Source of the DNA: Jaapia argillacea MUCL 33604
Taxonomy: Eukaryota; Basidiomycota; Agaricomycetes; Jaapiales; Jaapiaceae
Direction: 5' to 3'
NCBI GenBank assembly: GCA_000697665.1
Contig: KL197736.1
Location: forward strand, 104,273-156,185
DNA: 51,913 nucleotides
Of this stretch, positions 1 to 50,858 are shown in pieces. The position numbers were made by a program, and so were the translations under genes. Below the pieces are notes generated by a model. That model was given only the letters and a program-made list of their open reading frames with translations. It was not told the DNA's origin and searched no databases. Position 1 is the first letter of the stretch, and each line of letters opens with the position of its first letter.

Positions 1-3162
<3,162 letters not shown>

Positions 3163-3244
3163 TTCGCAAAGTCTATGCTACATCGATGAGTGGTATTTGG
3201 TGTACAATTGTCGTGTAATGCAGTCTACGAATCTACACCCCCAT

Positions 3245-6200
3245 TCACAAACTCTCCCACCCTCCGCTGTCTACGGTACTTTCTAATTTCCGAGCAACCA
3301 GTGTTGGGATTCCGTGTGTTAACCATGTCTTGCGCACCTCTTCCCACCTCGCTTGGTGTAAGTACTGTCTTCGTCCTCGTCTGGTGTGGAGTCATATGGA
3401 AGTGAGACAACGAGTAAACGACGAACAGAAGGAACATACCTCATCGAGATGTCCACTTCGCCATGAACGTCTAAGTATGGCGGAGAGGCGAATGTTCCAT
3501 TGGTGGCATAGATATAGAGTACAGCACATCTCCGCACTAGGAAGTAAATTCCGATGGCTCCTCCGCATCTGATCGGTCGAGAAGATAACGTCAACGTCAA
3601 GCTATAGAAAAGGAACTCAACAACTCACTCTCGGGTGTGCATATTGCATTCTCCCTTGCCTAGTTCTTGGTCCGAGCAGCAATGGCTCTGAATACAACAA
3701 GTCGTCCCACAGATCAAGCAGATCGCAGCATCGAATGGTACTGTCTTGCAACGAGGGCACTTGACCGCCTTTTCATATTCGACAAATAGATTGTCGAGCA
3801 CGAGAGGGAGATTTGCGATGCGGTAGATGCCAGGGTGATCTAAATTTACAGCGCAGTTGAACTGTGAAGCAGCATGCGAATGGCCATAGTGAGCACACCA
3901 GCCGGACAGGCAGTTCTGTAGGGTATCCTGGTTTGGAAGCTCAGATAGAGGAGGAATATCCAGCATAGTGAGTAGACGGCGATATTCGCATTGCTCGTCT
4001 GCACCAAAGGATGGTGTGGGGAAAGCTGAAGGAAGAATTGCGCGGCACAGGATGGCGGCTCGTCGGAGGAAGGGTAGTGTGAACGTGTACATCAGTCGCT
4101 CCAGTCGCTCCTCGCCGAACGTCTGGAGTGCCAAGGTAGCGCTGTGCTCAAACACAGGCGAATGGCGTGCCACCGACATGAAAAACATTCGAACGTCACC
4201 GAAGATGTCCTCGTAACTCTGATGTCCGGTCAAAGGCGTATTGACGGTCCTAGTCTTGGTGCAGAGGAAAACGAGGCCGACAACCGTCCGAGCCAAGTAG
4301 GCATAATAGGTCAAGATAAGAACTTGGCGTAGCATATCGGGAGCAACGGCGGCGGTTTCGATCAAGATGGTGAAGGGATCTCGGAGGAGCAAGGGGTAAG
4401 AGAACGAGGTAAGAGAGGTGCGACTCCATTCTGGCAATAACCTCTTGATGATGGCTTGACGGACAGCCTCCCGGCCATCATCAGCTCGGCCTTTGAATTG
4501 CAGAGCCGAAAGTTTGCTCAGGCAAGCAATCAGACCTCTGATGCAACGCATTTGTGTTTCTGGAACAGTATCGGAGATGAGAGTCCCAGGGGATCCCGAT
4601 CCTCTTTGAGCTGCCTCCATAGAGGCGATGGTGTAACCAACCAACTCCTCGGGAAGGTAGATACCTGCTCCCCGCTCTGTAGACTCCGGCTCGGGGCGGT
4701 CACGAAGGTGACGGGTTTGTTGCGAGATGCTCTTGGTGATGACCACAACCGTATCCACCATTTTATGCAACTCCATATTCTCCCACTTGTCTGGATGTCG
4801 AGAGTACGAAACGTATCCTGGATCCTGAACACCCCAAAACACAAACTCGCCGGTTCCGTTCCGGAATTGAAGTGAATCTAGTAAAGGATCGGGCTTGGAT
4901 TTCAAGATGCTGATCCCAGACGCGCGTATCCAATCGGGGAACGGCACAGGATTAAGTGGAGCCTTGGCAGGTAGGGCAAGAGGCATGATGACGTTCCCAA
5001 GACTCTTGCAGAGCGGACAAATGTACTCTTTTCGAGGGATATTCTCGGGATGATTACGAGTAGCTTGGGCGCGGTGTCGCTGTCGAACAGAGATGCTATA
5101 GACCTGAAAACAATCCAAATGCATCATATGATTACAAATGGATCCATGGACCCCAAACCGAGTGGACTGTGGCGGGAATCCATCAAAGCTGGGAGTGTTC
5201 GCAACCTTTGCGTCTTCTTCTGAATCGACTTGGGGAGGGAATGTCGCGCCGTCGGAGTTCGAGGGGGATCGATCCAAAGACAAAGGTGTCTGCAAAACAT
5301 CGTGAAAGTAGGATTGTTGTCCGTCAGGTTGTCGTCGAAGGAGTCGGCTAGGCTGTAAAAGCCCGAGTGTTCCAAATGCCTTCGTAGAATTGAGCTCCTC
5401 TTGACAAACGATGCAGGTACCATATGACACAGGTTCCTCCGGCGTCTCTCCCAAATCTTCATCACCATCTTCATCCTCCACATCCTCGAAATTGATCGCA
5501 AAGCTAGCCTGCTGAGCCTTCATCTGTTTCATGATAGCTGCCTGCCTGGCTTTCGCAGCCCGTTTCTTCTCCTCTTCAGCATTGGGTGGCTGATCACCAG
5601 ACAAGTCAATAACTCGACGTCTAGCACGGACCTCCTCAGGAGCATGACGCGCGATATTCGTCAAGATCCAATCGACGCGCTCCTTGTAAGTCTTGTACTG
5701 TTCGTGATGTTCGAGAGTGCAAAGAACGTCGATGAGGGTCTTCTGGTCATCGAAAGATTTGACGCCGCAAAGGTGACTGAAAACCTCGGCGCGTTCGACG
5801 ATGGCCAACATGATCAGATGTAACGCCTGATCGAGGATAGCTTCACCAGAAGGCGGTGGCGTCCCAGCCGACGCAGTGAGTTCGAGGATATTGTGAACCG
5901 CGTAGAACATAACCTGCAACAAAGCCTCCGACTCAAACGTATGCGCCAAAACCGCAAACGGTCCAAAAGCAATATCCAACGGTTTCGGCACGATGACCCC
6001 ACTCCCCACTCCCTTCTTCCCTCCCTTCTTCGCCGCCCTAGCCTTCAAAACAGTCTCCACCTCCTCCCTCTTATTCCTCGTATAATGATAAAAGAACGGA
6101 TTAACCTCATCAAACACTTCATCCTTCAACTCATACATCCCCGAATCCGAAATCGATTCCGGTGGCTTGAAAGTAGCCACTTGTTTCAACACCCTCTCAA

Positions 6201-9200
6201 AACAAACATCATCCACCATCCTCTCCGCAACCCTCTTCACCAAATCCGTAAACGTACAAGGCCCAACAGCCAACGCGTGTACAATCTCCCTCCTAACCGC
6301 CACCGGTAACGGCAACTTTGCAGCGTTGGCTTTCTCGCTTAGGATAGTGATGAACACATACAACACTTCTTCCACCATACTCATCAACTGAGCTCCTTCG
6401 TAAACAGGATGAACGGTCGCGCCGGAAAAGTAGTCGAGGAGTTGGAATCGGTCGAGGATGGATACCATGACTAGGTCGGGGTCTAGGACGACTAGAGCGG
6501 TTTGGACGATGAAGAGATCTTGGTCGTAACATAATTCACGAAGCATGAAATCGCGGTAATGGAGGAGTTGACCACGGATAGCGAATCCATTCCGGACCCA
6601 CAAACCCGTTCTGATCTGGGCAATCATCGCCAACACTGTTCGCACACAAACCCACCATCAGTTCTAATCGTCATAGAGGGGGCGCGAGAGCCCAAACACA
6701 GGAACCCACCTCTCAAAGGGAAATCCACAACAGTCAAAACAGCTCTCTCGCTCGCATTCCTCAACAACACATCCCTCAAACTCCCCAACCCAACCTCTTC
6801 CAACCTCTCCTCGCTCAACAACTCCACATGTTTAAACAACTCCGCAAGTAACCAATGTAAACTATGATGAAAGCTCACCCATCCTTCCAACACATCAAAA
6901 TGGACGGTTTGATATGAAGTAGAGGAGAATGTGACGGTGTGGAACGCGATAGGCTGGAATTTCGTTCGGTCGAGGATATCGTTCGAGAGTGTGCAAACCA
7001 TCAAGATATGATGGATAACAGTCCCAATAGCACCAACCAACTCCCCAACCCCACTCCCCGTCCTCCTTCCCCCTCCCCCTCCAAACCCTCCCCCTCCAAC
7101 CTCCAACCCACCAAAAGCCTCCCCCCAAACCTTAATCACCCGACTCAAACTCAACGTAACATTAAACACACTAATCCACGCATCGCTCTCAAACTCAACA
7201 TGATCCCTCCCACCCCCCACCCTCCTATTAGCGTTCAAACACATGAACAACGCACAGCATTTCACAAAGGCTCCTATTAATTGGGGGGAGCGAGGGATCA
7301 AGGCGAGGATGGGGGGTGTGTGGGAGAGGTAACGGAGGTCGGAGAAGACTGGCATGAATCTTTTGGATTTGAATGGGAATGCTTCGGGATCTATGGGTGT
7401 GGATGGGAGGGAGAGGGTGGTTGTCGTTGACCCAGGACCTGAGCCTGAACTTGGGGCTCCTAGACTTGAGTTCCCTGAGCCGACTGAGGTCGACTGCGAA
7501 GAAACGGGAACGGATAGAATCTGGTTATTCTTGATTTGATTCGTAAAGAACGCGGTGATGATGTTCAACAACCTAACGATCAGGTTATGTTCTTTCACGA
7601 TATGAAGTGCGATACTCGGGACGGTGAATAACTGAAGGGCGAAATATTTGATGGAGGTTTCTGCTTCTCTGTCGACGAGGAGGTAGGCGTCTATGACTCT
7701 ATGATAGACGTTTGCGAATCGGGATGCTACGAGATGGAGGGTTAGATTATAGCAACATGGGACAGAGCAAGTACCGGGGGAAGGAGGGGGGGAGAAAGAC
7801 AAGAATGGAACGGGAAAGAGACTCACCAATAGCCAACTTATGCTCATGACCCAAATTCAAAATCCCCACATAAACCTCTTTCAAACTCAACCTCGGTTTC
7901 TTCCACAACCTCGTATGAAACAAAAACAACCAATCCAACCTCCTCGGATCCTCAATCCCTCTCAACTCTTCCATAACCCCTCCCACACCCTCCTCCTCCC
8001 CACCCACAACAGCGGGTCCTTGTAGGTCAGCCGGAAGTGGTTTCCTTTCCAACAAGACTTGAGCTAGGATTTCTCGCAGGACGACAGCGTCGGTCCCGAT
8101 TCGAGCATGTGTCAAGTCCAAGAGGAACTCGATGAGGACTCCTACTATTTGTTCGCGGAAGGTATCGTAGGCTCTTCGGACGGTGATGCCGAGGTCTGTT
8201 TGGTGCATCATCTGTGCGATCTCGAGTAACCTGGCTGTGGTAACCATCGTCCCTCCTCCTCCCGCCGTTGCCATCCCAGTCCCAGTTCCACTAGAGCCGG
8301 TACCGGAACCTCCCATAAGGACGACCTCTCTACCTTCCTCATCAACCCTCCCAACAATCTCTCCGACTTCCTCCCCCTCCATCCCACAACAATCTCTCAA
8401 AAGCACACCCACCTCTCCAAAACTATGTTTATCATCGTTCCAAACGACCACACACCATAAATCCTTACTAAGGGGGTCGGCAGTTGGTTGGAGGTGTAAA
8501 GCGCTCAAGGTGGTAGGGAGAGTGGTTGTGGGGGGTGAGAGGGAGAGCGTGGAGAGGATGAAATCGAGGAGGAGGGAGAGGGTGCTTTGGATTGTAGGTT
8601 GGAGGGTGGGTGGTAGGGGGACACGATGCGGGTAGGATGGAAGTGGGGGTGGGTAGGGTGCCGGAGAGGAAGTTGGGGTTGGAGATGAAGATGAAGACGA
8701 AGATGATATTGAACGGGGGATAGCTTTAGGTGTTGTATGTATCGATGGTCCATACCCCTCTCCCTCTCCTTCAACTTCGGAAGAAGAAGAAGGAAGGTGA
8801 AAAGGACATGAGATGGGGTTCTGCCATGCTTCGGGATCTCCACAATCGCATGAACCTCCGGATTGTTGAGCGATGAAGAAGGAGACGTTATGGTCTGTAT
8901 GGTTAGATGCGTGGAAACATTTTGAGCAGAGGACGCAGGAGTCATCTAGGGCGCAGTCTCTGGAAGTAGAGGAGGCATTGTCAGATCGGATGGAAAACAT
9001 ATGGAAGACAAAAGATCGGGAGATATACTGACTTGCACCTAAAACAACTCTCGCCCCTCTTGAATATATGCCCACAACTACCTCCTTCACCCTCTTCCTC
9101 GCCTCCCGCACCCCCAAACCCCAATTTCGCCTGTACCTCGCCAAGTAAGGCACCCATAGGCAAACTGGAGTTTGAATTTGGCAAAAATAGGTGAGCATAT

Positions 9201-17175: not shown

Positions 17176-17989
17176 TTACACCGCCACTTCACTCGAATCC
17201 TTCCTCCGTATCTCGTACCCAACGTCGACATAGGAGTTTTCTTCAGATGCTTTTTCTACCCAACCACGGGCTATTTCGTGGATTTCCTTCGCACAATACA
17301 CTCGAATCTCTTCCGATGCCTTGGAGACGTCGTCCAACTTCTTGCCTGCCCTTTGACCGGGGAGTGCTCGCCGGGCGGTTAAGAGATGCGCTTGGAGCAG
17401 TTTTCGAGGGAATATTGTGGCCTCCCAATCGAGAGGTCGAAGCGACGTCCCGGCGTGAACTTGAACCATCTCTCTAACCATCTCGTCGTCATGAGTTCCC
17501 GCGTTCAATTTGAATACGACCTCGGTACCGCTCTGCCTCAACCAGTAAGCAACACTCTCCCAGATACATCCGGCGTACCACCAGCAGTTGAAGGTGGTTA
17601 GATCGTACACGGGAGCCTTTTCGTTCAGCTTATGCTGGAGTAGAGACAGATGCAAAAAATGGATTGCACTAGACTGTTGGGAGCGAAACGAAGGCATTTA
17701 TTCAGGAACTGAGGTTAGAATAGCCACAAAAGCCACGTACATGCTCGTTGGAAACGGTGATGGAGGCCATAAGCCTATCATGTGGTTTGGTCAGTTCCGC
17801 AATCCCATCTCGAACTTTTAGCATATCCTTGCAATTACGCCTCGCCTCTTCTTGCTGCCCGAATACAGACAGCCACGATGTGCTATCCCGCTCCATGCGG
17901 ACCCAGGTCGATGTATATGGAGCTGTGAATTTGAGTACGATATATTCATGACCGGGCGCCTCAGGCTCCTTGCACCAGTGCATTTCCAC
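17176..17989 (-). CDS. His/NCWW-domain protein of unknown function
   Basis: Not assigned to a named family. Exons in minus order: 17989-17741 and 17673-17176, intron phase 0 with donor GTACGT. They give 248 residues. It matches the N-terminal part of the protein starting at 37814. The shared motifs in order are PGHEYIVLKF (H14 here), TWVRMERD with a Trp shortly after, then YDLTTFNCWWYAGCIWE (Cys about 113). The C-terminal third is helical and charged. It lies 133 nt downstream of the GTPase at 18123-19459 on the same strand. An alternative splice from that gene (donor at 18262, acceptor near 18133-18138) would keep the frame through about 45 more codons upstream of the chosen Met and would fuse the two. 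The catalytic idea (His before Asn-Cys, as in permuted papain-like folds) is inference only. Confidence 0.65.
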
Positions 17990-18122
17990 AAGTTTCGAGG
18001 ATTGGTGTCCAGGTCGGAGGGACCAGCGCTGAAAAATGTTCCATTGAGACTGAAGAGCTAAATCAAAGCGCGACCTTTGCGACTCGGAGGGATCCAGTGG
18101 TCTAGGGAAAGTCTGATTAACT

Positions 18123-19459
18123 TCAACTCAATAGGACATAGGAATGTGTCATACAAGTTTGGGTATAAGCTGTGTAATTCAGGAGGGGATGTAACTGGGG
18201 GGCTAAAATCATACCGAAGGTTGGATGGATCCCCCAGATAAAGGAGCCCCGCCAAATCTTACCTGGTAAAAGTCCTGACAGTCCCTTGACCAAGTCCACC
18301 AAACCAACCCCCCTCAGATGGCTGTTTTCCTTCTTCTTCTTCGGCCTGCGAAATCTAGGCTGTGGTTTGAGATAGCGAAATATTGTCATTGCAATACACT
18401 CACCATTGCGGCCAGTAAAAGTTCGCTCTCAATTTCACTAGCCAAAATCATCACCTTCTCCTCCGGCATCCATCCGTCTTCACACACCGCCATGTGGAGG
18501 GTTCCCAAGAAATCATCAGGTTCTACGCCAGCGAGGACGCGATTGACATCAGAAACTACACGGGTAACGCCAGGCAGGAGGCGGTTGACACGAGGAAGAA
18601 CACGCCCGGCGCCAGGAAGTGAATGGACAATCCCAGGAAGTGCGCGGGCGGCATCACGGGCAACTTCGGGGAGCATGCGAGAAACCCCTTCGAGGGGGGT
18701 TTTGCGCAGCGCAGAGTGTCGGATCGTCTTCTCCGTTATCATCATCCATGGTTCGGGTGAAGACCACTGAGTAATGAGATCCACTACTTTCGGTCTCGAT
18801 TTACTATACATTCTCTGATGCTTGGAGTGGTCTGTGGTGGCCGTGACGCAAGCCTGACCGGAATACACCATTCCCCAGTCATTGAATTCGTGACGGTGCT
18901 TACGCCACCAACGGTCGGGATCCGATTCATGTTCAAGGCCAGTAATGACGAGGACGATGGGGACATGCCTTTGGCAGAAACCCTTGAAAACCATGCGATA
19001 ATGATGGGCAATCAAGGCCGTGATCCCGGAAGCCTTGACGACATGGACGAGGAGGTTCAATCCGCCTTCGAGATTATGCACGAGTAGGTACAAGTCCTTG
19101 ATGGCGTCGATGGACTGTGTGGTCCACTCTGAATCTCGGTTCAGGCCAACCGTGTCGAAAAGATTCAGGGTCATATGGGGAGTGGGGACAACATGCTTCT
19201 GAGATCTGAATGTGCAGCCAGTCTCGGCTGTATTGGCGACCTGCAACCCCGCTACTAGATTGATCACAGAGCTCTTCCCCACCCCAGATTCACCGAACAC
19301 GATGACATTGCGTGTCAGAATGCCGGGGGGATCGCTCTCCGACTCTGCAATGCTAACCGCTCATCAAGACAGAGAAAAGCACCAATGAGTTGCTCCTCAC
19401 TGTGCAATAGCCTTGCGTGACAAAGATGCCAGAGCTTGATGGTGATGCTTTTGGAACAT
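18123..19459 (-). CDS. P-loop GTPase, fungal AIG1/GIMAP-related
   Basis: Predicted guanine-nucleotide-binding protein of a family expanded in mushroom-forming fungi; its cellular role is unknown. Exons in minus order: 19459-19401, 19352-18404, 18359-18263, 18202-18123, giving 394 residues with consistent phases. The G1 P-loop is FGESGVGKSS in the 949-nt exon, G3 is LFDTVGL, and the strand-5 region reads VPIVLVITGLEHE. No canonical NKxD motif is visible, as is common in this subfamily. The C-terminal half contains imperfect LP-rich repeats (variants of RLLPGV, RVLPRV) followed by a basic KKKKE patch. Unlike the GTPases at 38-50 kb, its P-loop is not on a separate exon. The start is the Met of MFQKHHHQ; an in-frame Met lies 156 nt further upstream. 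The last two exons are less certain than the GTPase core. Confidence 0.72.
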
Positions 19460-37400: not shown

Positions 37401-37813
37401 CAGTTTTAAACCTTGGGTCAAACCTTCCTTGCTCGTGCAACAGAAACGAGATAACTCCTAACGCCCGGGTGCGTCAATCACCACCATTTCACACGTTCAT
37501 TTCCCTGATCATCGGTTTTAATCTACTGAGCCAGGTGCTTAATCGCTGCATCACGGCAAGACATGCTTTACACACCTGACGACCATGAACTTTCCACATA
37601 CTTGGAAATCTTTGTGCCGTATGTTCACACAGCTGCATTCGACTGACTGCGTATAACTCTCCGCCAACTTCGTCAACCCATCCTAAACATCCATCGACAT
37701 GCGTCGAAATGATCCTGACCCTACTCAATCTATTTTTTGGCCCACGGTCATGGTATGTCGCCTGTTACTGCAGTTGGTCCGCGTCAATGTATTTGCACTT
37801 CTTATAGCTGGAT
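34497..37813. other. promoter of the Ser/Pro-rich gene and long gene-free stretch
   Basis: About 34.5-35.8 kb is upstream flank of the Ser/Pro-rich gene. It recurs, diverged, at 46.18-47.31 kb, which explains the open frames that appear in both places. I see no supported gene in 35.8-37.8 kb. A GTG-led open frame at 35816-36187 (-) with RRQYTILAKEKDELTSHELL could be an exon but has no partners. A ~75-bp element at 37322-37400 recurs inverted at 43.12-43.20 kb. Confidence 0.5.
37322..37400. repeat. dispersed ~75-bp repeat, copy 1 (inverted relative to 43.1 kb)
   Basis: The reverse complement of this stretch matches 43119-43200. Shared blocks include TTCAGGGACT, GTGGCTTCAACGTTTCTCCCA and TCAGCCGTAA. 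No coding content is evident. It may be a small mobile-element end or a duplication boundary. Confidence 0.7.
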
Positions 37814-40800
37814 ATGGTTGCCAGGAGAACCCCCGATCTCCTTCAGCTGCCATCCGCTCGCAAGGCTAACTTGCCCCGCAAGACCACCGTCGACACGTTT
37901 CTTGGCTGGCTGCAAACTGATACTACACGTGCCGATGGAGTCCCTGAATCACCCCTTCGCAACATTGCCTGGATGAGATCACCGGGCAGACCCTCACACG
38001 ATTACTTAATCCTGCGGTTCGACTGCTCGTGGTTACGTATGGAGCGAGATTATACAGAAAATTGGCTCTCTGCCCTTCTGTTTGGGCAGAAAGCCGCGTG
38101 CATAGATAAGATCACGTTCTCACAGAACTTCGACGACCTTCGTGATCCTCTTGATCAAGTCCTCGCATCACTCTCAGTTCAACCTGGCGCCATCGATTTG
38201 GTAAGCCTCGCTTGCCTTCTCAGAGCCATCATCTCCGATGTCGATTACTACAATCTCGACACCTTCAACTGTTGGTGGTTCGTCGACTGTGTCTGGAGCA
38301 ATCTTGTCGCTCGGACTGACCCAGCTGGTTCTGTGTTCTGTATCTGGGGGGGCGGGGACACGGTCTTTGCCGCTGTCCAGCTTTTCGCGAGATCCTTACC
38401 CACTGAGGCGGAATGCGATGCTGAGACGTTCGCTCGCATCCAGCGGCACATCCATTTGGAGGGGGTGAAGCTTTTTTTCGGGGCTGGAAAGCCGAGGGAC
38501 GAAATGTTGCGGATCTCTGCAAACATAGAGAAAGCTTATATCGAAGCGTTGCGAGATCTAGCCTTCGAGAGAGCTCTTCTCAAAGGAGTGGGGGCTCAAA
38601 GGATATCTTTCCTGTGAGTGTCATCTTCGTGTCAACTATCATACTGACAACTGACTTTCCAGAGTGTTGGGTCCGTCTGGAGTGGGGAAATCCTCAGTGA
38701 GTGGATCACTTGTATTGGAGGGGAATTTTTCTGAATCATCTCGTAGTTTATCGCTGCGGTCACGGGGAAGGATATACCTTTGGGGAAGGATAGTTTATCG
38801 CCGTGCACTACGGACATCAGCACCATTCCATTCCGAGAGACCATCAAATTCATCGACACGCCACCGAGTGATGAGGATGGGTTTTACTGTGACCTTAAGA
38901 CTTCAAAGGCGATTCTCCAGAGAACGTAGGTCCCCCCTCGAGACCCTTGTTCGATATCGGTACTCATCAATCCATGCAGTGAAGGAGGGTGCACGATCGT
39001 CCTATACTTCCACTCAATTGATCGCAATCGCCTTACTTGCAATCTTGCCAATCTCAATGATTTTTGCAAAGATATGCACCTTAAACAAATCGTGTTTGTC
39101 ACAACGATTTGGGACGAGGTCCCAAATGATATAGCTGTACAAAGAGAACGAGAGCTCATGGAATCCTGGTCTTCAGTGGGTCCGGATGTGAAGGCGAAGA
39201 CAGGCCGATTCATGCAAACACGAGAGTCTGGGTGGGCCATCTTGCATAAGGCTGCAGGATTTACGCCACTGCCGTACTGCCCCCTCCAGGCTTCCGCGCC
39301 CAATTCATCCAAGGGTTCCGACACCGAAGGATCCTCCAAATCCCCGGCGGCGGCGGCGGCGGCAATTCCTGAAAAACTACACCCTAACGGAATTGATATT
39401 ACCCAAGCGCTGGTTGGTACTATCACCTTTCCAGTTGGTCCTGGAACGCCCTCCCCCATGGAACAGCTGAGCGTGCGCCAGTGAGTAGTCTGGTAGTGCG
39501 AGAACGTCAGTCGCTCATCTACTTTATACAGGGCTGGTACCCCCCCAGATGATGCACAATTGACTCTGACGGGTGTAGCTATGAATTTGTATGCTCCGCC
39601 ATGTTCGCTTTGTCACAGTACTGACCATCCCCTCGGTATTCGTAGTACATCGAATCCCATCCCTGTTTGGAATGCGGGGAGGACCAGTTTGGGGACTCGG
39701 GAAGGGCCAGTCGAGTTGCTCGACAACAATGAGTACCCTGCTTCGGCCACTGGTGCTGAAAATCAACACATCAGTGTTGTCGATTCCTCAGTTACTGCAG
39801 TAACACCCTCTCCCACCGACCCACCCAGCGGGTAAGTAATCTGGCCATGTGAGAACCTTCGGGACCGCTGACCTACCTCTTACAGAACTGGTACCTCTCC
39901 AAACGATGCACAATTGTCTGTGTCCGGTCCGGCTATTAATTTGTATGCTCCGCCATGTTCACCCTCCCGCACTACTGACCCCTCGGTATTCGTAGCACGT
40001 CGAATTCCATTCCCGTTGGGGATGCGGGGAGCACCAGTTTGGGGACTCGGGAGGAGCCCGTCGAGTTGCTCGATAACAAGGAGTACCCTGCTTCGGCCTC
40101 TGGTACTGAAAATCAACACATCAGTGCTGTCGATTTCTCAGATACTGCATCAACACCCTCTCCCACCGACCCACCGAGCGGGTAAGTAATCTGGCCATGT
40201 GAGAACCTTTGGGACCGCTAACCTACCCCTTACAGAACTGGTACCTCTCCAATTGATGCGCAGCTGTCTGTGTCCGGTCCGGCTATTAATTTGTACGCTC
40301 CGCCATGTTGACTCTCCCGCATTACTGACCATCCCTTCGGCATTCTTAGTGCGTCGGATCACATCCCTGCCGGGAATGCGGAGAGTACCAGTTTGTGGAC
40401 TTGGGAGAAATTCTTCATGTTGCTCGAAGACACCGAGTTCTCTTGGTCCCATGCTTCGACCACTAGTGCTGAAAATCAACACGCCAGTGCTGCCGATTCC
40501 TTACTTGTTGCAGTAACACCCCCTCCGACCGACCGACCGAGCGGGTAAGTAATCTGGCCATATGAGAACCTTCGCGGCTTCTGATCTGCCTCTCACAGAA
40601 CTGGTACCTCTCCAGATGATACACAATTGTCTTTCATGAATACGTACGATCCGCCATGTTCACCTTACCACACTACTGATCATCCCCTCAGTACTCGTAG
40701 TACGTCGAGTCACTTCCCTGTTGGGGATGCGGCGGGTTCAATTTCGGGGTCTCTGGAGAAGCTTGTCGAGGTGCTCGAAGACAACTTGAAGGAGCTCTCC

Positions 40801-41553: not shown

Positions 41554-42826
41554 GGAAGGTGAAGGCGTTTGTTGGGAATCGCTTAGTATGTACTATCCCG
41601 CGCTCTAGCTGATTTGAGAAATGACGACCGTGTAGCTTAAATGGGGCGACAATCCGAAATTCCTGTCACGCAAAGGCTCTTTTGAACGATCGTCTTTCCG
41701 CGCACAGCTCGTCAAAATCGACCTGAGCCCCGAGGACATAGTTATTGCGTGAGTCGTGTACCCTCCTCCTCAGACATCCGATGTTCTCACACGTTATATC
41801 TCTAGGGTGATGGGCCCCATTGGATCTGGGAAAAGCACGGTGAGAGAAGTCGGCGTCATACCTAGATGGTACCCCCTCAGCCTCAAATGAAGTTTGTCAG
41901 CCATCTCACCGGAGCGGAAAGGAAAATCGGTTTGCAGTCGTGCACGTCAGAGATACAAATAATCAAGCTTCAATCCCCGAATAGCGGCTACGACGTGGTC
42001 TTCGTTGACACTCCTGGATTTGATGATACGCACAAGTCGGACACAGTCATTCTGAACTCGATCTCGGATTGGTTGAATGAAACGTATGTCTTCGTCATTG
42101 CTTGGGAGCGTTTTGTTCACCTGTCCCAGGTATAATAACCAAATTCTTCTGAGTGGCATTCTCTACTTCCGCCGTATTTCCGACAATCGTATGGCGGGTA
42201 CGCCACTCAAAAATCTTGATATGTTTCAGAAGCTCTGCGGGAAAAAAACACTCGAGAACGTCATTCTGACAACGACTATGTGGGACGAAGTCGATGAGTT
42301 CACGGGGAACGCACGGGAAGAGGAGTTGAAGTGGAAGTACTGGGATTATATGTTGTCGAAGAAATCGAGAATCTCGCGCTTTCTCAATACCCGCCAATCG
42401 GCTTGGGCAGTTCTAGACCCCATACTAGGCTCGGTGCATGAGGAACGTGCCTTACTGCTCCAGACGGAAATGGGGGAGTTGAAGCGTTGTCTCCCCGAAA
42501 CTTCAGCTGGGCACGGGCTCTTCAGCACCATGGAGGAACTTCTCAAGAAGGAGCAGCACGTGCTTCGGAGGCTTCGGGAGGAGACGATCAAGTCGACTGA
42601 TTCAGACGCTCTGGAGACCTTAACAGCCGAGTACGGTGGGCTTCAGCAGGAAGTTGGCAAGACGGTGGAGCAGATGCAAGCCTTGCGATTGCCGATGGGG
42701 AAGCGCTTGCTCTTCAAGCTCCCGTCGGCTCAGCCGATGACTACCAGGTGTTATGTACGATTTCCACTTGTTTTTCGACAATTTCTAATAGTCGTCTACA
42801 GCATTGACAATGATGGTCCATTCTGA
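41549..42826 (+). CDS. AIG1/GIMAP-like GTPase region, separate gene or 3' half of the mosaic gene
   Basis: Exons 41636-41748, 41806-41839, 41893-42083, 42130-42747 and 42802-42826 join in frame to 326 residues. Upstream, 41549-41585 encodes VRKVKAFVGNRL and connects in phase 0. Motifs: DIVIAVMGPIGSGKST (P-loop on a 34-nt exon), SCTSEIQIIKLQSPNSG, VVFVDTPGFDDT (G3), ILTTTMWDEVDEFTG (G4), then a helical tail with LLKKEQHVLRRLREETIKS. The domain itself is intact. No good ATG begins it. The preceding exon (41384-41492, ending phase 1) and 41549 differ by one nucleotide in phase. So either this is the second GTPase domain of the mosaic gene broken by a one-base change, or it is translated from an unseen start. 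Confidence 0.6.
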
Positions 42827-49129: not shown

Positions 49130-50858
49130 TTAGTAGCAATAACAGTTCAAATTCGATCCCGGTTAGGAATACGGGGTTCACCAGCTCCGGAGTTCAGGAG
49201 AACAACGGAGTCAAGGGAGTCGAATCCCAAAAATCATGGCCCCCGCGAGCTTTCAGAGGCTAGCGCTGAAAATCTAGGACACGCCAACGCAGCTAGCACT
49301 CCCCGAACCCGTGCGGGTATCGCTGAGGGAGTGACTGCATGCACATCATCCAACGCTGACAAACCGAACAAGTGAGTAATCTGATGATACAAGTTCCTAA
49401 CGGGTCGTTGACTTACTCCGGCAGAATTCCCTCTACGAACGATGTGTGTATTATTTCCTCATCTCGTGGCTGTGAATCAATTTTCTGATTCAATCCTGTG
49501 CCAGGATGCTCAGTTGTATATTGTCATCTTTCTCGAGATAGGAGGTACTCATACGCTTGCTGTAGGGTCGAACAATCGGACAACAGTAAGGGATCGGGGG
49601 TCTGGAATTCGTAAGTGTTATCGCTTCTCAATCCCGCGGTCCCCTCTGATGCACCGCTCCTCCCAGCCTGAAAAATATGTTTTGGACGCGCTCGGCATGT
49701 ACCCTTCCTGTCATCCAGTTGAACCGAGTAATGACGACCGTGTCAGCCTAAGGGAGGTGACAGTCCGAAAACCCAACAACGTAAAGGCTCTTTTGACCAA
49801 ACCTCTTCCCGCGCAACCGTCGTCAACATCGACGACCTCGGTACAGAGGACGTGGTTATTGCGTGAGTCGCTTAACCTCATCGTCAGATATCTGATACTC
49901 TAATATGTTCTATCCCTAGGGTGATGGGCCCGACAGGATCTGGAAAAAGCTCGGTGAGAGAAGTCAACTTCATACTCAGATAGCACCCGCTCAGCCTCGA
50001 ATAAAGTTTATCACCATGTCACCGGAGCGGAAGCGAAAGTTGGGCACGGTTTGCAGTCGTGCACATCAGAGATACAAGTCATCAAGCTTCAATCCCCGAA
50101 TAGCGCCTACGACGTGGTCTTCGTTGACACTCCTGGATTTGACGATACGCCCAAGTCGGTTACGGTCATTTTGAACTTGATCCCGGATTGGTTGAATAAA
50201 ACGTATGTCTTCTCCATCACTCAGGAGTGCTTGGTTTACCTGTCCCAGGTATAATAACAGAATTCTTCTGAGTGGCATTCTCTACTTCCACCAGATTTCC
50301 GACAACCACATGGCGGGTACGCCACTCAAAAATCTTGATATGTTTCAGAAGCTGTGCGGGAAAAACGCACTCGAGAATGTCATTCTGACAACGACTGTGT
50401 GGGACGAAGTCGATGAGCGAACGGGGAGCGCACGGGAAGAGGAGCTGAAGTCAAAGTACTGGAGTTCTATGTTGGCGAAGAAATCGAGGACCTCGCGCTT
50501 TCTCAATACACCCCAATCGGCTTGGGCAGTCCTGGACCCCATACTACGTTCGGCGCATGAGGAACGCGCCTTCCTGCTCCGTACGGAGATGGGGGAGTTG
50601 CGGCGGACTCTCCCCGAAACCTCAGTTGGGCACGGGCTCTTCAATACCATGGAGGAACTTCTCAAGAAGCAGCAGCACGTCCTTCGGAGGCTTCCGGAGG
50701 AGACGATCAAGTCGACTGATTCAGACATTCTGGAGACCTTAACAGCCGAGTACTGTAGGCTTCAGCGGGAAGTTGGGGAGACGATGGAGCAGATGAAAGC
50801 CTTGCAGTTGCCGTTTGGAAAGCGCTTGCTCTTCAAGCTTCGTCCATTCAACCGATGA
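49130..50858 (+). pseudogene. duplicated GTPase module, frameshifted
   Basis: Direct copy of 41.04-42.85 kb. Upstream pieces retain a module-5-like exon and an exon at 49505-49611 (DAQLYIVIFLEIGGTHTLAV). The P-loop exon 49920-49953 (VMGPTGSGKSS, 34 nt) is intact. Directly after it, around 50010-50025, one base is missing relative to the parent copy, so the downstream frame (SCTSEIQVIKLQSPNSA, VVFVDTPGFDDTPKS, ILTTTVWDEVDERTG) is not reached in frame. The exon matching 41549-41585 is unrecognisable. The 3' end stops earlier (FKLRPFNR). The downstream GTPase frame is otherwise open, so decay is recent or the coding part uses another splice. Confidence 0.7.

Follow-up and report, generated by a model that had tools for sequence, protein, structure and literature searches.

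A candidate family of permuted papain-like cysteine enzymes joined to GTPases in both domain orders in the fungus Jaapia argillacea

Introduction

At two places in the genome of the basidiomycete Jaapia argillacea MUCL 33604, a domain marked by the motif NCWW lies beside a P-loop GTPase, once in front of it and once behind. Both places fall within one 51,913-nucleotide stretch (contig C28, positions 104273–156185), which we refer to as the window. The arrangement raises the question of what the NCWW domain is, whether each pair is a single gene and whether the two orders arose separately. Our preferred reading, to which we assign a probability of roughly 0.55, is that the domain represents a new family of H-box/NC (LRAT/PPPDE-type) cysteine enzymes with about 66 loci, that it has been fused to TRAFAC GTPases at least twice and that the fusions act as GTP-switched thiol acyltransferase or hydrolase effectors. 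If true, the permuted papain-like enzymes would gain a eukaryotic family, and orphan fungal AIG1 and MMR_HSR1 GTPases a testable role in switching a thiol enzyme on and off. That fusion occurred independently in the two orders would also predict direct functional coupling, perhaps extending to copies that are not fused. A literature search, outside whose scope lay most subscription papers and bioRxiv preprints, found no paper on the NCWW domain.

Results

Occurrence and conserved residues of the NCWW domain

We searched the 43.7-Mb genome (95 contigs) exon by exon, a procedure that makes the locus counts lower bounds. The 76 matches to the NCWW domain merged into about 66 loci; letters over the domain were read at 58 of these, and the remaining eight are represented by coordinates only or in part. 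Matches to the two GTPase families searched lie within 5 kb of 14 loci and are absent from that distance at the other 52. The preliminary description of the window had proposed a functional link between domain and GTPase, and had held that homologs mostly lacking a GTPase neighbor would speak against it. That is nearly the situation within this genome: the pairing with a GTPase is real and repeated, but is confined to a minority of the copies. Judged by eye, other copies appear to bear coiled coils or tails, a membrane tail among them, or to occur by themselves. No significant match to the domain was found in Pfam, NCBIfam or PADLOC, and it constitutes a large uncatalogued family of probable cysteine-enzyme domains.

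Twelve columns are invariant in a 27-row alignment, A1 (W54, H63, R76, E78, R79, Y147, N153, C154, W155, W156, W162 and N164); A1 was drawn from L001–L030 with L003, L005 and L013 omitted as broken or degenerate, and 'invariant' thus excludes the motif-breaking copy L005. Several tryptophans are as strongly conserved in A1 as the histidine and the cysteine. A second alignment, A2, takes in more distant rows; it omits L042, L043, L052 and L054 of L040–L059 and holds L009 twice, as a core and as a longer sequence. Among its 44 rows beside the reference, the histidine and the asparagine are each present in 44, the cysteine and the glutamate in 43 and the aspartate in 42. We predict an active site composed of H63, E78 or D80, and N153–C154 (A1 numbering). 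The copies that have lost the cysteine have also altered both acids (NC to SS, E to Q and D to K in L005; C to G, E to D and D to A in L047), a joint loss that would be expected if these residues act together. In both copies the reading frame across the domain is still open, and they are possible pseudoenzymes.

Relationship to known cysteine enzymes

Two AlphaFold models of the NCWW domain (pLDDT of 86.4, with a pTM of 0.86, and of 88.1) agree in their order of elements: a strand, a strand starting at the histidine, a strand with the acids, two strands, a helix and a helix starting at Asn-Cys. This is the order expected of LRAT, PPPDE and other papain-like enzymes with a circular permutation. 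The known LRAT fold order, used for comparison with the models, is similar to theirs, and the H-box/NC proteins of the LRAT/PLAAT group (HRASLS, PF04970) likewise place a histidine first and open a late helix with Asn-Cys, in the motif YN[LV]xxxNCxxFA. A published classification describes the permutation and gives LRAT a CHH triad (PMC10318531). Near the place of the second LRAT histidine, the NCWW domain has Glu/Asp instead, such that the third active-site residue would differ. Whereas LRAT reads NCEH(F), nearly all rows here read NCWW(F), with the first histidine kept in 44 of 44, and the NCWW domain, unlike LRAT, carries extra N- and C-terminal helices.

Profile searches gave weak matches to two families. 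No row of 45 matched LRAT (PF04970) in Pfam at E ≤ 1, and the Pfam family touched by the most rows was Peptidase_C97/PPPDE (PF05903), with 3 of 45, a best E value of 0.023 over a stretch that includes NCWW, and a score of 15.0 bits against a cut-off of 29.2. We also collected at least 117 bacterial LRAT-type stretches, with the motif in 80 of 80 loci among the matches listed; all three sequences tested in Pfam were LRAT, and the 30 that we aligned share H16, H28 (at least 90%) and NCEHFA. In hhalign against these 30, YNVxTFNCWWFA fell on YNLxxNNCEHFA with E values of 0.006, 0.0053 and 0.0026, over 14–15 columns only and with a reported probability of 6–11%; one of 600 column shuffles scored as high. 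A looser setting also paired the conserved histidines of the two families, without confidence, and aligning the domain with LRAT over its whole length by hhalign was unsuccessful (E = 0.83).

Structural searches gave a comparable picture. Foldseek returned no significant match among PDB entries (best E values of 0.13 and 0.64) or viral models (0.053), and both PDB lists were headed by unrelated folds. Weak matches placed PPPDE at rank 2 and LRAT at rank 3 in the viral search, and the 2A proteins of parechovirus and ljunganvirus at ranks 6, 7, 24 and 29 in a PDB search; parechovirus 2A is an H-box/NC protein. With one short pattern per scan, we retrieved 35 stretches from prokaryotic and 161 from viral contigs, none of them a confirmed relative. 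The conserved residues, the model topology and the weak profile and fold matches together point to a permuted papain-like fold, none being decisive alone. On these grounds we hold it quite probable that the NCWW domain forms a family of permuted papain-like (H-box/NC) enzymes. A nature of this kind, likely that of an LRAT/PPPDE-type cysteine enzyme, had escaped the preliminary description.

A tentative alternative, which we rate as rather improbable, is that we are dealing with a protease of the permuted papain-like kind, or a deSUMOylase/deubiquitinase, of PPPDE/C97 (DESI) type that the GTPase delivers to protein targets, with no lipid chemistry involved. PPPDE enzymes have the permuted order predicted for the NCWW domain, show a weak profile match around NC, and have the most Pfam matches and the second rank in the viral search. 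The Pfam matches lie far under the C97 cut-off, however, and the LRAT profile match is similarly strong, with hhalign run against LRAT only. The genome carries a separate PPPDE gene on contig C3.

It is unlikely that the conserved residues are structural, with the domain serving for binding or as a scaffold and its fusions to GTPases being some of many chance shufflings within an expanded family. The 52 loci without a nearby GTPase, the tryptophans that rival the histidine and cysteine in conservation, the lack of a significant fold match and the open frames of the two cysteine-lost copies would all suit such a module. Against it, both models place the histidine, the acids and Asn-Cys at the active-site positions of a permuted papain-like enzyme, and independent fusions in two orders would be hard to obtain by chance when the loci of the two GTPase families, together with their 5-kb flanks, cover 0.8% of the genome.

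Fusion to a GTPase at 37.8 kb

At 37.8 kb, an open frame on the plus strand (37808–38617) carries the NCWW domain with the motifs SHDY, MERD and NCWW. The following features make up this fusion, which we call fusion A, and its 3′ flank.

37814–38613 (+): exon 1, NCWW (H-box/NC-like) domain; open frame, 27-row alignment with 12 invariant columns, AlphaFold pLDDT 86.4 and pTM 0.86
38614–38662 (+): intron 1, 49 nt, at the boundary of NCWW domain and P-loop; GTGAGT...TTTCCAG, corresponding donor position in L002, L003 and L005
38663–38696 (+): exon 2, P-loop VLGPSGVGKSS; spliced reading frame
38697–38746 (+): intron 2, 50 nt; spliced reading frame
38747–38925 (+): exon 3, GTPase (FIAAVTGKD...FIDTPPSDEDG); MMR_HSR1 25.7 bits in the spliced model
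38926–38979 (+): intron 3, 54 nt; spliced reading frame
38980–39484 (+), 3′ limit approximate: exon 4, GTPase (VLYFHSI..., VTTIWDEV); spliced frame and open reading frames
39527–40632 (+): tandem array, unit length 350 bp, 3.1 copies with 82% matches; repeat analysis and open frames

Exon 1 ends with two bases of a codon that the first intron splits. The predicted splice of 38613 to 38663 reads ...RISF-LVLGPSGVGKSS-FIAAVTGKD... and stays stop-free up to 39484, passing through GPSGVGKSS, FIDTPP and VTTIWDEV. The spliced protein satisfies the Pfam model MMR_HSR1 (PF01926) with 25.7 bits against a cut-off of 21.9, and gives no AIG1 match in Pfam. That the NCWW domain at this place runs in frame into a GTPase, as the preliminary description had claimed, is thus borne out, and the predicted gene structure confirms that the two are joined at 37.8–39.5 kb through a 49-nt intron.

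The junction region of fusion A, with both its donor and its P-loop, recurs in L002 on contig C26 and in L003 and L005 on contig C24. L003 has an in-frame stop inside the NCWW domain, and L005 has SSWW in place of NCWW and a P-loop degraded to GSSGMWKSS; judged by these lesions, two of the four copies of fusion A are decaying. dN/dS values for fusion A of 0.50–0.64 indicate weak constraint.

Just 3′ of fusion A, each unit of the tandem array contains, by eye, an exon-like frame and an intron-like stretch. The array is possibly a repeated tail of fusion A.

The reverse order at 17–19 kb

The second pairing, fusion B, lies on the minus strand and is read as five exons, listed here from the first to the last.

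18404–19360 (−), 5′ limit approximate: GTPase exon (VFGESGVGKSS); MMR_HSR1 34.6 bits, AIG1 21.7 bits (below the cut-off of 27), splice chain
18263–18354 (−): linker exon (ISQAEEEEGKQPSEGGWFGGLG...); matching exon in L035 and L037
18155–18202 (−): 48-nt exon (PPVTSPPELHSLYPN); splice chain and alignment
17741–18101 (−): first exon of the NCWW domain (GHEY, MERD); splice chain and alignment
17176–17673 (−): second exon of the NCWW domain (YDLTTFNCWWYAG), terminating in a stop codon; open frame and splice chain

Joined across introns of 49, 60, 53 and 67 nt, these exons form a single frame of 651 codons with its sole stop at the end, in which the GTPase comes first and the NCWW domain follows in two exons. 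The preliminary description had suggested a splice able to fuse the two parts here; its donor near 18262 stands, and the preferred acceptor is at 18101, with the 48-nt exon before it. Five loci on contig C7 repeat the order and strand of fusion B, with 348–591 bases between GTPase and NCWW domain, and an alignment of these type B copies shows donors and acceptors in common. The three inter-domain introns lie at matching places in L035 (51, 57 and 56 nt) and L037 (51, 57 and 59 nt).

In a looser path test, which allowed up to three introns, the GTPase could be connected to the domain without a stop at six of six type B loci; when no more than two introns were allowed, this held for one of the six, L039. 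When the inter-domain stretch was shuffled, a path with at most three introns appeared in 1 of 100 trials for the window, 1 for L035, 9 for L036, 1 for L037, 10 for L038 and 0 for L039. For L036, L038 and L039 the test concerns the existence of some path, the intron places being unmatched to other copies. Hand-set intron choices yielded no open path in L039; its GTPase frame has an early stop, and this copy may be decayed. Between fusion B in the window and L037, dN/dS is 0.19 for the GTPase and 0.12 for the second NCWW exon; over the computable type B pairs it ranges from 0.12 to 0.81, dS being too high in many comparisons.

We consider it very improbable that the GTPase and the domain at 17–19 kb are separate adjacent genes whose spliced fusion is only occasional: retention of the second intron would bring an immediate stop in the window (...RTFTR, stop), AGGTAA at that site is common to the aligned copies, and a stop separates the adjoining GTPase frame and NCWW gene at C28:218905, but the five-exon frame is open from end to end, the window copy agrees with L035 and L037 in its introns, and, with all six loci open at three introns or fewer, five have no path at fewer than three.

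The GTPase of fusion B satisfies MMR_HSR1 with 34.6 bits (cut-off 21.9). The window copy does not reach the Pfam cut-off of 27 for AIG1/GIMAP (PF04548), at 21.7 and 22.5 bits; its type B paralog at C7:1176701 does, with 45.8 bits. That cut-off is passed at 17 of 25 places in the genome, among them the type B paralogs C7:1176701 and C7:1100045. By its paralog C7:1176701, the window copy is classed from sequence as AIG1-like. The GTPases of fusions A and B are distant relatives (23% identity, E = 7e-6). They have the P-loop and G domain in common with the AIG1/GIMAP and MMR_HSR1 (TRAFAC) GTPases and, unlike these, are joined to a thiol-enzyme-like domain.

Independent origin of the two orders

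On the predicted gene structures, the GTPase stands in front of the NCWW domain at 17–19 kb and at the five C7 loci, and behind it at 37.8 kb and in three copies elsewhere. Nine of the 14 GTPase-near loci are fusions of type A (C28:142086, the C26 copy and C24:334920) or type B (six loci); one is a further fusion on contig C4 (C4:959771, L041). The remaining four are neighbors, comprising three in a C4 cluster and C28:218905, where the GTPase frame runs into a stop roughly 0.5 kb short of the frame of the NCWW domain. L003 (C24:351487) has the P-loop junction and is outside the 14, as no GTPase match fell there. The 14 loci compare with 0.5 expected, an enrichment that is overstated, tandem duplicates not being independent; our case is built on the tree and the fusions instead.

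In a tree of 54 rows, which leaves out L003, L013 and loci without fetched letters, the three A rows and the six B rows form separate groups, divided from each other by a split supported at 98/90. Because the A and B clades are separated in this way, the two domain orders arose separately. The GTPase–NCWW pairings, both involving TRAFAC-type GTPases, are thus best read as at least two independent joinings in opposite orders, in agreement with the independence claimed in the preliminary description.

The NCWW frame at C4:959771 stays open across two introns, 51 and 56 nt long, and reaches GATGTGKSS-FIKSI and FIDAPG. This copy sits in a third place in the tree, apart from both A and B, and probably represents a third joining. 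Alternatively, it could be a remnant of an older fusion common to A, followed by losses; descent of A and the C4 copy from one old fusion is possible because their P-loop exon and intron places are identical. No P-loop is seen within the 1.3–1.4 kb downstream of the domain in any of the eight loci of the C4/C9 group, nor downstream of L004, which the tree places nearest to A. We lowered an initial figure of three or more independent fusions to at least two and probably three, as the C4 copy has the intron places of A.

Discussion

Proposed mechanism

Under our preferred reading, that of a GTP-switched cysteine enzyme, the GTPase would bind GTP and self-associate at a membrane or target, and this assembly would bring or unlock the adjoining thiol enzyme. 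The cysteine might then form an acyl-thioester with lipid, as LRAT-type enzymes do, or alternatively cut an isopeptide bond, as PPPDE enzymes do. Since GTPase and enzyme are not arranged in the same order in all fusions, they seem more likely to be coupled through proximity or joint assembly than through one fixed interface. AIG1-type GTPases are tied to membranes, and for this reason we lean toward a lipid substrate.

The copy number, the tandem clusters and the varied partners would fit a fast-changing set of intracellular effectors for defense or self/non-self recognition, and a role of the NCWW–GTPase pair in immunity or such recognition is plausible. A more specific proposal strikes us as doubtful: that the roughly 66 loci constitute a fungal defense or self/non-self system in which GIMAP-like GTPases, recruited two or three times and placed on either side, gate an LRAT-like enzyme acting on membrane lipids.

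The Hog domain, a Hint-type autoprocessing domain with a fold other than that of NCWW, acts through a cysteine. GmGIN1 from Glomus mosseae is described as combining a Hog domain with an AIG1-like GTPase (PMC2362128), to that extent a parallel in which a fungal AIG1-like GTPase is combined with a cysteine-dependent domain.

Additional observations

Several further features were noted around copies of the NCWW domain. The domain of L025 is followed on its own strand, some 0.7 kb further downstream, by a STAND-type NTPase (NPHP3_N, 44.3 bits; positions 3103–3501), an arrangement that fits effector use. Five of the eight C4/C9 copies (L180, L182, L183, L185 and L187) share, by eye, a tail resembling GPxxDGxYRIQNL, which a strict pattern finds in L180, L183 and L185 and which occupies the place of the GTPase in the C4 fusion. 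A ricin-like beta-trefoil, suggested by eye for the C4/C9 tails, was rejected, with Pfam blank for the three tails tested; an SH3 domain at the end of L015 was likewise rejected, with Pfam blank for that protein.

Elsewhere in the window, two similar GTPase-type frames, at 42077–42826 (TTMWDEV) and 50196–50858 (TTVWDEV), are 81% identical. Each alone is without a Pfam match, and their family has 34 matches, 27 of them on contig C28. On the minus strand, an open frame at 3625–6657 is of the UBR1/UBR2 E3 ubiquitin ligase type (E = 8.4e-47 to UBR2) and may belong to a single gene together with the frames that extend to 9393.
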